Assembly (NCBI GenBank): GCA_027486935.1
Contig: JAIXOF010000237.1
Location: forward strand, 1 to 60,821
Direction: 5' to 3'
Length of the DNA: 60,821 bases
Source: Cyanobium sp. C1_MAG_00004
Lineage (GTDB): Bacteria; Cyanobacteriota; Cyanobacteriia; PCC-6307; Cyanobiaceae
Part shown: positions 20,097-24,811 of the stretch, piece after piece
How the letters are laid out: every line of letters starts with the position of its first letter
How positions within the stretch are numbered: the stretch's first letter is position 1
Translations under genes and position numbers: made by a program
Notes under the pieces: generated by a model
Told to the model about the DNA's origin: nothing
Seen by the model: only the letters and a program-made list of their open reading frames with translations
The model's database searches: none

Positions 20097-20134
20097 GCTT
20101 GCCGTCAGGCTTCGAGCTTGCCGTCAGCCCTCGA
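20097..20134. repeat. 19-bp tandem duplication at the helicase stop codon
   Basis: Two adjacent 19-base copies, starting GCTTGCCGTCAG at 20097 and 20116, differ at three positions. The helicase stop codon (20124-20126 on the minus strand) lies in the second copy, so the duplication gave either a second stop codon or 3' UTR sequence. Confidence 0.7.
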
Positions 20135-23093
20135 GATCGCTGTGGGGGCTTGGAAAGTCCCCCGGCATCGCCGACTCAGGCGGCAGGTCCGGCTTGGGTC
20201 GCTCGATCGCTGCAGGCGGTTTGGGCAACAGGTCCTCGAGCTCGCACACCGGGAAACGGTTGATGGCCCGCAGGGCGGCGCGGGCGTTGTCGCGCAGCTG
20301 CTGGCTGACCGCTTCGCAGTAGGGAATCTGGGCCAGCAGATCGATGGTGCGGCGCAGCACCCGCACCACATCGCCTTCGTCGAGCGAGGTGTTGCCGATC
20401 ACGTCGCTCCAGCTGGCGCCCCTGGCCCAGGCCTCGACCAGGCCGGTGAGCTCGGGCTCCCACCAGAGCGGAAAGGACACCTTGGCCCGCTCCTGCTGGC
20501 GTTCCAGCTCGCGCCGGATGCCCCGCAGATCATGCAGGGCCTCATCAACTGCCGGGGGTGGCGGGTAGCCGCACCAGAGGTCCGGACGGTTGACCTCGGT
20601 CGAGATCGCTTCGAGCACGGCCGCCAGTTCGGGGGGCGGCAGCTCATCAAGGTGGCCGCTCATCAGCGCCAGGCCGAGCCACAGCTCGTTGTCGCCGCGC
20701 AGGGCGGCCACGGTGCGGCCGATCTCGGTGGGTTCGAGCCCCTCATCACCGGCCAGGGCTCCGAAGTGGCGCAACACGTCGATCAACGCCAAGAAGGTGT
20801 CCCAGTGCCTGTTGGACCGGAAGTGCAACAGCCGCTGGCGCTCCTCGATCTCGAGAGCCAGCTCCTCCATCCGGCGGCGGTGCTTCTTGAGCTGACGGCG
20901 GTCGCCCCAACGGTGGGCGGGATGGAGTTCGAGCTCCTCCTCCAGCTGCTGCACCAGCTGGGCCTGGCCCTGGACCTCGGCCGCAAGGTCGTACTGGGGG
21001 GTATGCATGTCATGGCGACGGGCCATCGAGGCCACCGCCAGGGCCAGCCCACCGCTGGCCTGATCGCCATGGCGCAGCTCACCGGCATGGCGCAGCTCGG
21101 GCGCGTCGAGCTGCCTGACCTGCAGACAGCTCAGCTCGGCGTGCAGGCTGACCACCGCCGAACAGGGCAGCAGAATCCAGAGGTTGTCGTCGGTCAGGCA
21201 CAGCAGTAGCGGGAACTGGCCCGGGCCGTTGACCTTCTCCACAATCACGGCCGGTGTGACCCGGCCCCTGAGCTGGGGCGCCTTGACGCTCACCAACGAG
21301 CCCTCACTGGCGAACTGCAATGCCAGCGTCAGCTCGTGGGCCAGGGTCTCTTCGGCCTGATGCTGCAGGATCCGCAGCAGGCGCCGCTCCTCGCGCAGGC
21401 GGCCGCGCTGTTTCTCGTAATCCTCAAAGTCTTCCCAGGGCACATCGCCCGAACCATCCTCGAGCTGGTCGAGCCGCTCGCGCAGGTCGGCGATCGCCGC
21501 CTCGTCATCGGCCAGATCCAGGGTGGCCAGGTAGCGGCCGAAGCTGCGCTCGACCAGCTCCTTGGCTTTGGCGAGGTCGTAGCGCTGCAGCAGGTTCAGC
21601 ACCATGCCGTAACTGGGGGTGAACTGACTAACCAGCGGATCGGCCGGGGCCGTCGCCAACTGGCCCGCTTCACGCACCCCTTCAAAGCGGCTCTGCACCG
21701 TGACCACATAGCCCTGGGAGTCGAGCCCGCGGCGGCCGGCCCGGCCCGCCATCTGCAGAAACTCACTGCCCATCAGCGGGCGGTGACCCCGCTCGGTGCG
21801 CTTCGACAGGGACGAGATCACTGTGGTCCGGGCCGGCATGTTGATGCCGGCGGCAAGGGTCTCGGTGGCAAAGACCACCTTGATCAGGCCCTGCTGGAAG
21901 AGCTCCTCAATCAGCTCTTTCCAGGCCGGCAGCACGCCGGCATGGTGGGCGGCGATGCCCCGCAACAGGGCATCGGCATGACCCCCTTCGCGGACAGCAT
22001 CGGGGGTGGCGGCCACAAACGCATTCAGCCGAGCCTGAATGCGGGCCTGCTCGTCGGGGTTGACCAGGCAGACCTTGCCCAGATCCCGCACCCCCTTGTC
22101 GCAACCGCGGCGGCTGAAGATGAAATAGATCGCCGGCAGCATCTGCCGATCGGCCATCTGGGCCACCACAAAGCCCAGGGGCGGGGCCTCGGGCTGGGGC
22201 GGTTTGGGGGTCTTGGGCCCTTTGCGGCGGTTGCCCTTGGGGGCGCGCCAGACCTTGCAGTTGGGATGCAGGCCCGTGCCCTCGTCATTGAGCAGCGGAT
22301 GCAGACCCTTGGCGCTGCAGAAGCTGAACGCCAGCGGCACCGGCCGGTGATCGCTCAGCACCAGGCGGGTGGGGCCATGCACCCGCTCAATCCAGTCGGT
22401 GAGCTGACCGGCATTGGCGACCGTGGCCGAAAGGGCCACCAGCTGCACGGCCGGCGGACAGTGAATGATCGATTCCTCCCAGACCGTGCCGCGCTGGGAG
22501 TCGTTCATGTAATGGCACTCGTCGAGCACAACCGCCTCGACGTCGGCCAGGGGATCGTTGTCGGGATGATCGATCTCCGCATACAACATGTTGCGGAAGA
22601 TCTCGGTGGTCATCACCACGATCCGGGCTTCGCGGTTCAGACTCAGATCACCGGTCAGCAGTCCGACATTCTCGTCGCCGAACTGCTCGCGAAAGTCGCG
22701 CAGCTTCTGGTTCGAGAGCGCCTTGAGCGGGGTTGTGTAAAAAACTTTCTGGCCGTGGGCGAGGGCGCGGTGAATGGCGTATTCACCTACCAGTGTCTTG
22801 CCGCTGCCGGTGGGGGCACTAACCACAACCGAATGGCCCTGATTCAGGGCATCGATCGCCTCGAGCTGAAAGTCGTCGAGGGGAAAAGGAAATAACTGCT
22901 CAAGCGGCGGCACACCGGTCGCGCTGACCGCGAAGGCTGCAGGATCGGATCGATCGGTGGCCGAGGAACGGTCGACGGGCCGTCGGGCAGTGAGATGCGC
23001 CAATCCTATGGGGCTGGGCCGATGGGCGGGATGACCCCGCCCAGCCGCGTCCCCTGCCGGGTCCCCTGCAGCGCCACGCGTCCCCCCCATCAC
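20124..23093 (-). CDS. SKI2/Mtr4-like DEVH-box RNA helicase
   Basis: A 989-residue superfamily 2 helicase. The ATPase motifs are APTGSGKTLVGEYAI (Walker A, near residue 92), LDECHYMND (DExH), LSATVANA and QMAGRAGRRG (motif VI). A long C-terminal region ends in a DSHCT-like domain (residues about 790-960), as in eukaryotic Ski2/Mtr4 and the cyanobacterial relatives. The role is probably RNA turnover or processing. The first 60 or so residues are low-complexity and the real start may be later, nearer the conserved FPFPLDDFQLEAI. Confidence 0.9.
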   Translation of the reverse strand: MMGGTRGAAGDPAGDAAGRGHPAHRPSPIGLAHLTARRPVDRSSATDRSDPAAFAVSATGVPPLEQLFPFPLDDFQLEAIDALNQGHSVVVSAPTGSGKTLVGEYAIHRALAHGQKVFYTTPLKALSNQKLRDFREQFGDENVGLLTGDLSLNREARIVVMTTEIFRNMLYAEIDHPDNDPLADVEAVVLDECHYMNDSQRGTVWEESIIHCPPAVQLVALSATVANAGQLTDWIERVHGPTRLVLSDHRPVPLAFSFCSAKGLHPLLNDEGTGLHPNCKVWRAPKGNRRKGPKTPKPPQPEAPPLGFVVAQMADRQMLPAIYFIFSRRGCDKGVRDLGKVCLVNPDEQARIQARLNAFVAATPDAVREGGHADALLRGIAAHHAGVLPAWKELIEELFQQGLIKVVFATETLAAGINMPARTTVISSLSKRTERGHRPLMGSEFLQMAGRAGRRGLDSQGYVVTVQSRFEGVREAGQLATAPADPLVSQFTPSYGMVLNLLQRYDLAKAKELVERSFGRYLATLDLADDEAAIADLRERLDQLEDGSGDVPWEDFEDYEKQRGRLREERRLLRILQHQAEETLAHELTLALQFASEGSLVSVKAPQLRGRVTPAVIVEKVNGPGQFPLLLCLTDDNLWILLPCSAVVSLHAELSCLQVRQLDAPELRHAGELRHGDQASGGLALAVASMARRHDMHTPQYDLAAEVQGQAQLVQQLEEELELHPAHRWGDRRQLKKHRRRMEELALEIEERQRLLHFRSNRHWDTFLALIDVLRHFGALAGDEGLEPTEIGRTVAALRGDNELWLGLALMSGHLDELPPPELAAVLEAISTEVNRPDLWCGYPPPPAVDEALHDLRGIRRELERQQERAKVSFPLWWEPELTGLVEAWARGASWSDVIGNTSLDEGDVVRVLRRTIDLLAQIPYCEAVSQQLRDNARAALRAINRFPVCELEDLLPKPPAAIERPKPDLPPESAMPGDFPSPHSDLEG

Positions 23094-23100
23094 GTCTCCT

Positions 23101-23170
23101 TATATCCCGGCAAGTCCCCTCATATCCCCTCATATCCCCTCAAGTCCCCTCAAGTCCCCTCACGTCCGCC
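23101..23170. repeat. 10-bp tandem repeat tract
   Basis: Five consecutive 10-base units, CAAGTCCCCT or CATATCCCCT, run from 23111 to 23160. Degenerate units flank them (23101-23110 and 23161-23170). The tract lies in the 284-bp gap between the divergent helicase and bioF genes and has one strand of almost pure pyrimidine blocks. Confidence 0.9.
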
Positions 23171-23216
23171 TTACACCCCCCATACCCCATCGCGCCCGTG
23201 CCGACCAAAACACGAC

Positions 23217-23312
23217 GTGCCGTGATGCAGGCGTGCCTTGATGTGCTCATGCCTTGATGCGCTCATGCCTTGATGCGCTCGTGCCGTGATGCAGGCGTGC
23301 CGTGATGCAGGC
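23217..23312. repeat. 16-bp tandem repeat tract, six copies
   Basis: Six head-to-tail 16-base units start at 23217, 23233, 23249, 23265, 23281 and 23297. Two sub-types alternate in blocks: GTGCCGTGATGCAGGC (copies 1, 5, 6) and ATGCCTTGATGCGCTC or near variants (copies 2-4). It ends 65 bp before the bioF start. Units abut without spacers, so it is a minisatellite and not a CRISPR array. Confidence 0.93.
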
Positions 23313-23377
23313 GTGCCCAGATCGGCTTACTGCAGAGACCGATCCCGCCTTCCGCACCTGGCAGCAGACTGGAAGGC

Positions 23378-24811
23378 ATGGGCCCATCACCAACCGATCA
23401 GCCTGTTCACCCCGAGCCCCGAGCCGAGCCTCCAGCCGAGCCCCAGGCTCAACCCCGAGCTGAGCCCCCAGCTCAGCCTGCAGGGCAACCCCCAGCTCAG
23501 GTTCGAGCCCAGCCTCCATCCAATCAACTAGCCCCGCCACAGGCCACCCCTCTGGCCGCCGCCCTGGCCACCGCCCTGGCCGGAGCGCAGCATCACCAGA
23601 GGTTGGATCACCCGGTTGAGCCGCACCAGCCCGCCTGGAAGCGGGAGCTGCAGCGGGCGATCAACGCCCTGCCAGCCACGCGCCGGCGCCACCTGCGCAG
23701 CTTTGACCCGGCTGAGGCCGGAATGCTGCAGCACTCCGGGCACCTGGGTGAACGCCCCGCGCTGCTGCTCGATCTGGCCAGCAACGACTATCTGGGCCTC
23801 AGCCGTGACCCCAGGGTGATCGCCGCCGCAACGGCCGAGCTTGGGCGCAGCGGCCTCGGTGCAGGGGCCTCGCGGCTGGTGTGCGGCACCAGGACGGTGC
23901 ACCACCAGCTCGAAGACGCCCTGGCCGGTTGGCTGGGCCGTGAGCGGGCGCTGCTGTTCCCCAGCGGCTTTCAGGCCAACATCGCGGCGGTCTGTGCCCT
24001 GGCGGACCGGCACAGCCTTGTCCTGGCCGATCGCCTGATCCACCACTCGCTGCTGGTGGGGGTACGGGCCAGTGGGGCCCAGCTGCAACGCTTTCGCCAC
24101 AACAATCTGACCGAACTTGAACAGCGCCTTGCCGCTGCCCGTGCCCAGGACCCCGGACGGCGCCTGCTGGTGCTCAGCGAGAGCCTGTTCTCAATGGAGG
24201 GGACCAGCCCCGACGTGGCGTCGCTCGAAGCGATCAGCAGTCGGTATGGCGCCGCCCTGCTGCTCGACGAGGCCCATGCCCTTGGCGTTCTGGGACGCGG
24301 CGGGCGCGGTCTGGGGCTTGGCCATTCAGGCATCGCCCTGATCAGCGGCACCCTGGGCAAGAGCCTGGGGAGCGGCGGCGCCTTTGTGGCGGGCGACGCC
24401 ACCACGATGGACTGGCTGTTGCAGCACAGCGGCGCCTTTCGCTACACGACCGCCCTGGCCCCTGCTCTCGCCGCCGGAGCCCTGGCAGCACTTGATGTGA
24501 TCGAGGCCCAGGAGGCCAACGGCAACCCCAGCGGAGCCAGCCTGCTGCAACGGGCCGAACGCTGGCGGGCCGCCCTGGCTGCAGCGGGCTGGCCCCGTCC
24601 CCCGGGCAACGGGCCGATCCTGGCGCTGCTGGTGGGCGACGACAGCCGCGCCCTGACCTTGCAGCACCAGCTAGAGACGGCAGGCTTGCTGGCTGTGGCC
24701 ATCCGCCCACCGACCGTGCCCGAGGGCAGCGCACGGCTGCGCCTGGTTGTGCGGGCCGATCTGCCGCCAGGCACGCTGGAGCGGCTGATCAGCGCCCTGG
24801 GCAAGCCATGA
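23378..24811 (+). CDS. bioF: 8-amino-7-oxononanoate synthase
   Basis: PLP enzyme that condenses pimeloyl-ACP with alanine in biotin synthesis. The family core runs from about residue 85 to 477 and includes LDLASNDYLGLS, LLDEAHALGVLG and the PLP-lysine segment SGTLGKSLGSGG. From ATG 23378 the product is 477 residues, about 80-90 longer than usual. The extra N-terminus is almost entirely Pro/Ala/Gln/Glu repeats and may be untranslated; an in-frame TTG near residue 76 is an alternative start. It overlaps the next gene by four bases. Confidence 0.93.
   Translation: MGPSPTDQPVHPEPRAEPPAEPQAQPRAEPPAQPAGQPPAQVRAQPPSNQLAPPQATPLAAALATALAGAQHHQRLDHPVEPHQPAWKRELQRAINALPATRRRHLRSFDPAEAGMLQHSGHLGERPALLLDLASNDYLGLSRDPRVIAAATAELGRSGLGAGASRLVCGTRTVHHQLEDALAGWLGRERALLFPSGFQANIAAVCALADRHSLVLADRLIHHSLLVGVRASGAQLQRFRHNNLTELEQRLAAARAQDPGRRLLVLSESLFSMEGTSPDVASLEAISSRYGAALLLDEAHALGVLGRGGRGLGLGHSGIALISGTLGKSLGSGGAFVAGDATTMDWLLQHSGAFRYTTALAPALAAGALAALDVIEAQEANGNPSGASLLQRAERWRAALAAAGWPRPPGNGPILALLVGDDSRALTLQHQLETAGLLAVAIRPPTVPEGSARLRLVVRADLPPGTLERLISALGKP

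Follow-up and report, generated by a model that had tools for sequence, protein, structure and literature searches.

The window, a stretch of 60,821 nucleotides from a draft Cyanobium genome (G000 below), contains a helicase gene and bioF in divergent orientation with two tandem arrays between them. The arrays had been predicted to occupy a divergent spacer, and the gene content bears this out: a DEAD/DSHCT helicase lies on one side, and bioF, with bioC and bioD downstream, on the other. A picocyanobacterium is the probable host, judging from gene content such as a zeta-carotene desaturase match. The features of the region are as follows.

20124 to 23093, minus strand: helicase reading frame with DEAD and DSHCT domains (gene calls, domain matches)
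23002 to 23010: AATCCTATG, reading CATAGGATT on the minus strand, a putative -10-like site
23106 to 23165, no strand assigned: 10-bp tandem array CCCCTCATAT/CCCCTCAAGT, one degenerate and five clean copies (sequence, TRF)
23199 to 23217, plus strand: decayed left end of the element, TGCCGACCAAAACACGACG (TGCCGATCTCGGCACG in intact copies; alignment of copies)
23218 to 23313, plus strand: six 16-bp units of two sub-types, consensus TGCCGTGATGCNNNCG (sequence, TRF, pattern matches)
23314 to 23327, plus strand: right terminal unit, TGCCCAGATCGGCT (TGCCGAGATCGGCA in intact copies; alignment of copies)
23378 to 24811, plus strand: bioF, with the ATG context CAGACTG...ATGGG similar in congeners
23414 to 23497, plus strand: third tandem array, 12/36 bp, within the 5' part of bioF (TRF)

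The helicase probably starts at or below about 23010, and the minus-strand CATAGGATT may act as a -10 element. In three congeners (G001, G003 and G005) the helicase-proximal part of the spacer carries an ATCCTAT motif, and in a fourth (G004) ATCTTAT. A scan of the spacer region for sigma-70 type promoters gave 0 matches (0.1 expected), and the one terminator-like site found there is weak. A search of a plasmid collection with the spacer returned no match.

Both arrays are real and lie at the predicted positions, and each exceeds what chance produces in simulations. The copy numbers given in the original prediction, five clean 10-bp copies and six 16-bp copies in two sub-types, also agree with the sequence. 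The clean 10-bp copies (23116-23165) read CCCCTCATAT twice, CCCCTCAAGT twice and CCCCTCACGT, with the degenerate copy at 23106; TRF scored this array at 79-95, and the best period-10 match was 43/50, compared to a maximum of 30 among 20 simulated windows of order 2. The 16-bp sub-types are TGCCGTGATGCAGGCG and TGCCTTGATGYGCTCR, with TRF scores of 100-130 and a best period-16 match of 68/80, compared to at most 39 in the same number of such simulations. The prediction fell short on extent: the second element is longer, spanning 23199-23327 (129 bp), and the third, 12/36-bp array was overlooked. This third array codes for part of a Pro-, Glu- and Gln-rich N-terminal stretch of the bioF product, which lies outside the homology with congeners, whose matches start at residues 64-101. 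The stretch amounts to ~80 residues (window positions 23378-23617) and consists partly of 12-bp-type repeats.

The 10-bp array is a separate minisatellite, private to this locus. Its unit has 12 matches in the draft genome (up to 3 mismatches), of which only the 5 at the bioF locus cluster. On the minus strand the array reads GGGGACTTGA, a quadruplex-type motif of GGGG-N6 repeats (23116-23159) with four or more G-runs and loops of 6, and it is the sole site on that strand of the window with four closely spaced runs of at least 4 G. On the plus strand, the sole window site with four runs of at least 4 G is at 2547-2586.

A dispersed element family with inverted ends

A BLAST comparison of the 16-bp array with the other G000 contigs gave strong matches on many of them (best E 2.3e-24). 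When up to 3 mismatches were allowed, a pattern of two units matched the genome 80 times, compared to 0 for the reversed control. The resulting family has 17 loci, 16 found initially and a 17th added, all of which were re-found. A reading of the array upstream of bioF as a device specific to biotin is not supported: it is one of these 17 dispersed copies, and the neighbouring genes that can be named share no common function.

The better copies consist of a hairpin arm, TGCCGATCTCGGCA, followed by TGCCGTGATGCNNNCG units, at times 8-bp halves of them, and then the opposite arm, TGCCGAGATCGGCA. Loci contain 3 to 12 cores. The inner stem positions 4-8 of the arms are complementary in 14-16 of 16 loci, a count in which C80 was omitted as a duplicate of C196 and two ends were placed by hand. 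With automatic ends, element length is 2 modulo 8 in 15 of the 17 loci, the right end of C175 being misplaced by one unit; with this end and the left end of C12 placed by hand, 16/17 fit, at lengths of 74 to 154 bp. Over 90 units taken from the 17 loci, agreement was highest at positions 1-3 and 7-11 (84-90 units), intermediate at positions 4-6 (72-78) and lowest at positions 12-16 (37-66). Unit choice used likeness to positions 1-10, which inflates agreement there but does not affect position 11 or the variable part. Hairpin folding was pronounced (z of -3 or below on at least one strand) in 8/17 copies, and the intact copy C196 folded as DNA into one hairpin with z of -4.8 and -5.9. The window copy gave z of -0.5 and -1.0 (as DNA, -0.2 and 1.2), no hairpin beyond that of shuffled sequences. 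Since it does not fold, unlike intact copies, we call it a worn copy. Its arms are decayed, and its length is the exception to the 2-modulo-8 register.

The flanks of the copies are mutually unrelated, with the exception of C80 and C196 (L166 and L168), which lie at two contig ends and are 89% identical over some 560 bp that include the element. Either this segment was duplicated or the assembly produced the resemblance. Two loci of the congener G002 similarly share about 1.2 kb, and together these stretches suggest that some of the spread occurred by larger duplications. Of 12 element spacers bounded on both sides, 7 are divergent, compared to 41 of 130 controls of at least 130 bp, both by rough gene calls. 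One copy is in a convergent spacer, another (C68) falls within a called gene, and C199 takes up the 110-bp gap that separates called genes. Contig C201 carries two octad elements (L064 and L103) about 7 kb apart. We discounted a role in termination, since no fewer than 7 copies occupy divergent spacers; the terminator-like site near bioF is weak. An Rfam scan of 16 element loci at the gathering threshold found no match.

Traces of a mover were sought in several ways. Target-site duplication, which is frequent in MITEs, was not found at 16 loci (mean best symmetric match 1.4, compared to 1.5 for mismatched pairs). A Y1/RAYT gene was found in 0/6 genomes of the genus, the control matching in 5/14, and a GTAG/CGTC tag or its complement occurred in 5/68 six-base segments beside the arms (expectation 3.8%), without a constant position. 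Element ends matched at 25 sites in all, five of them outside the 17 loci; in the 3-kb stretches of the draft assembly viewed around these five, no partner end of a parent or longer element was seen.

Orthologous sites and distribution in other genomes

Many relatives retain the helicase-bioF pair, which allowed the spacers to be compared. From the ATCCTAT motif to the bioF ATG, the distance is 375 bp in G000 and 61 bp in G001, G003 and G005, so that the description of the setting as compact suits this spacer poorly. The G004 spacer (182 bp from ATCTTAT) contains a related array with divergent units in the same phase; G002 was outside this comparison as its contig shows no helicase. Downstream of era there is a 90-bp element in G000 and an array in G004, and the next gene is close in G001, G002 and G005 (G003 gave no era locus). 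At fda, five units in G000 compare with about 1.5 in G003 and none in G001, G002 and G005, and the G004 spacer is different. At crtQ the element is present in G000, hairpin-like arms alone are present in G005, and none was seen in the other four genomes. Element presence and length thus vary between species at the bioF, era, fda and crtQ spacers. The predicted variation in copy number therefore holds between species, at bioF and at other orthologous spacers, on the basis of one genome per species.

In a five-protein tree, for which proteins were missing from some genomes, G000 was sister to G001, G002, G003 and G005, with G004 outside and supports of 85-100 inside the genus. Arrays common to G000 and the more basal G004 imply that each such array was either lost once in the sister clade or gained in parallel, and the remnants in G003 (fda) and G005 (crtQ) favour loss at some sites. 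Some copies accordingly look old, and sites without an element could reflect loss from the sister clade instead of a gain by insertion in G000.

We scanned 201 genomes of the taxonomic family, the own genome included, with the two-unit pattern. Fifteen had matches, and the reversed control gave 1 match over all 201. Apart from the 80 in G000 there were 5 in G002, 3 in G004, 1 in G001 and 0 in G003 and G005, the congener genomes being incomplete drafts (73-88%). Ten further genomes had 1-2 matches each, at the mismatch limit, and G065 had 9, all from a pure 8-bp array. This G065 array, from another genus (L114:1457-1545), consists of about 11 TGCGTTGA units and may be related to the octad unit. 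A DNA-similarity scan of the 201 genomes, among 4 candidates scored per genome, matched G000 and G002 alone. Viral contigs scanned with the exact unit pattern had no match. In the wider genome contigs, own genome excluded, the exact pattern matched twice, in unrelated organisms; these two matches were taken as chance rather than as family members. A palindrome scan of the five congeners gave 46 matches with up to 1 mismatch; by eye, nearly all of the 18 viewed look like chance matches in genes, and one on G001 contig C42 resembles an element remnant. On these scans, the family looks nearly confined to the genus.

Tandem arrays beside the element

Unrelated tandem arrays lie near most copies of the element, and the 10-bp array of the window is one of this kind. 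We counted a second array where TRF scored 50 or more and delimited spacers with a home-made gene caller. Over 615 kb of genome, 14 of 16 element spacers had a second, private array (the 17th locus being in a called gene), a count in which C80 and C196 are not independent. Among spacers of 130-900 bp effective length the proportions were 12/13 for element spacers and 19/134 for controls (Fisher p 1.2e-8), although some control spacers may be uncalled genes and controls came mostly from large contigs; on the same contigs, 5/24 controls had an array. With fixed 200-bp flanks and C80 omitted, arrays were found at 14/16 element loci and 10/98 controls. Varying the flanks (150 or 200 bp) and the threshold (40-70), again with C80 omitted, gave 7-14/16 for element loci and 3-17/98 for controls, with p from 2.6e-5 to 6e-10. 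Possession of an ordinary array did not have the same association: control spacers with one had a second in 3/12 cases, compared to the 14/16 of element spacers (Fisher p 0.0015). The effect is large, even though the test was post hoc and the gene caller rough (it called the bioF start at 23602). Such frequent pairing with a second array was unexpected, and it looks like a feature of the whole genome, not a biotin switch. Two further private 10-bp arrays beside elements are TTAGGTCTGT at L072 (contig C228), with about 17.7 copies, and CTGCTGCTTC at L103 (C201b), with about 13.6 copies.

In G001, G003 and G005 the bioF spacer has neither the element nor a private array, and the same holds for the era spacer in G001, G002 and G005. 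Either the element and the private arrays both gather in relaxed spacers, or the element provokes the private arrays. In the second case the element would be a nucleator of minisatellites, its fold stalling or slipping replication so that locus-private tandem duplications arise beside it. This would explain the companions at 14 of 16 loci, the lower 3/12 for ordinary arrays, and the element-less bioF and era spacers, which have no room. We regard nucleation as a tentative suggestion and rather unlikely.

Related systems and alternative explanations

Small dispersed repeats (SDR) of 21-27 nt are found in Nostoc. The known system closest in build to the element is BrickBuilt of Porphyromonas gingivalis, described as a minisatellite within a MITE, with 19 intergenic copies, unit numbers that differ between strains and predicted stem-loops (PMC4596501). 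MITEs are defined there by terminal inverted repeats, no coding capacity and a length of 50-1000 bp (PMC4596501). The cyanobacterial element likewise has terminal inverted repeats, no coding capacity and a length within this range, with the arms decayed in the window copy. Both have tandem units inside inverted ends, many intergenic loci, a narrow host range, units that are partly conserved and partly variable, and no Rfam match. They differ in that BrickBuilt has 23-bp units with long leader and tail segments and ends that resemble IS5-family elements of the same species, whereas here the units are 8/16 bp, arms alone flank the array, the ends are in register with the units, and the search found no parent.

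In REPINs, inverted palindromic ends and a spacer form a hairpin and are dispersed extragenically, as in our element (PMC3116915, PMC3733652). The folding expected of REPINs was seen in the eight copies given above, the window copy not among them. Unlike the REPIN/RAYT system, the element has no consistent GTAG/CGTC tag, no Y1/RAYT gene in the genus and a tandem array as its spacer (PMC3116915, PMC3733652). Dispersed G-rich heptamer repeats of Nostoc and Xanthomonas, GGGGA(C/T)T in Nostoc, form quadruplexes (PMC4692102). The 10-bp array resembles them in its G-runs and the minus-strand GGGGACTTGA motif, and differs in being a decamer at a single locus rather than dispersed (PMC4692102). TAACTGA repeats are intergenic tandem arrays of short units at many loci, in cyanobacteria among others; their 7-bp unit has another sequence, and their published abstract makes no mention of inverted hairpin ends (PMC4679880). 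The element is unnamed in the papers found by our literature search, whose scope most subscription journals lay outside.

Taken as a whole, the 16-bp array is best explained as one decayed member of a family of small, non-coding and hairpin-ended elements dispersed in the genome, a reading to which we assign a probability of roughly two in three. An element of about 74-154 bp, built of 8/16-bp tandem units between inverted ends that form a hairpin, would have reached about 17 mostly intergenic sites in the lineage through a mover. Its copies would gain or lose whole octads, most likely via slippage or recombination between units, and if bioF or helicase expression changed at all, that would be incidental. 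The comparisons show the dispersal, the common ends, the register, the near-confinement to the genus and the presence or absence at orthologous sites; active transposition, the slippage step and the status of empty sites as lost or never inserted are what we infer. An alternative is that nothing moved: a slippage-prone genome could make minisatellites in relaxed spacers, and octad arrays could have grown from old palindromes or been copied solely by larger duplications and gene conversion, the empty sites then being losses. The frequent private arrays near elements, the arms without an array at crtQ of G005, the short remnant at fda of G003, the bioF and era arrays common to G000 and G004, and the stretch shared by C80 and C196 would all fit. 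Yet the 17 loci have unit, ends and register in common but, C80/C196 apart, not flanks, and it is implausible that one 16-mer arose repeatedly on its own; we consider this alternative unlikely.

Two explanations assign the array a regulatory role. In one, the core TGCCGTGATGC, repeated every 16 bp, would be bound by a putative regulator at many promoters. The conservation of unit positions 1-3 and 7-11 over the variable 12-16 is consistent with this, the selection of units having inflated it for positions 1-10. However, a regulon would not lead one to expect hairpin ends, neighbours lacking a common function, copies in a convergent spacer and inside a called gene, or absence at four orthologous sites from most assessable congeners, and we judge it improbable. 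In the other, expression of the helicase and bioF would be tuned by the number of repeats lying between their promoters. The position of the array in a divergent spacer, the differing array lengths between species and the share of divergent spacers among bounded element loci (rough gene calls) agree with such tuning, which is in this respect partly supported. The element itself is not specific to bioF: it recurs at 16 other loci beside unrelated nameable genes, in three congeners the gene pair is intact around a spacer of 61 bp, and the promoter scan was empty. Because the family is dispersed and the pair persists with the short spacer, a biotin-specific reading is weak, and tuning at this locus seems to us very improbable as the explanation of the array.

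Together, these results favour a non-autonomous, hairpin-ended minisatellite element that possibly seeds adjacent minisatellites. What appeared to be a local curiosity becomes a countable element family, with 17 sites and lengths that shift in octad steps. The family lends itself to testing whether DNA expands because a structured element lies beside it. If nucleation is true, the site at which a bacterial minisatellite originates would have a movable, deletable cause.
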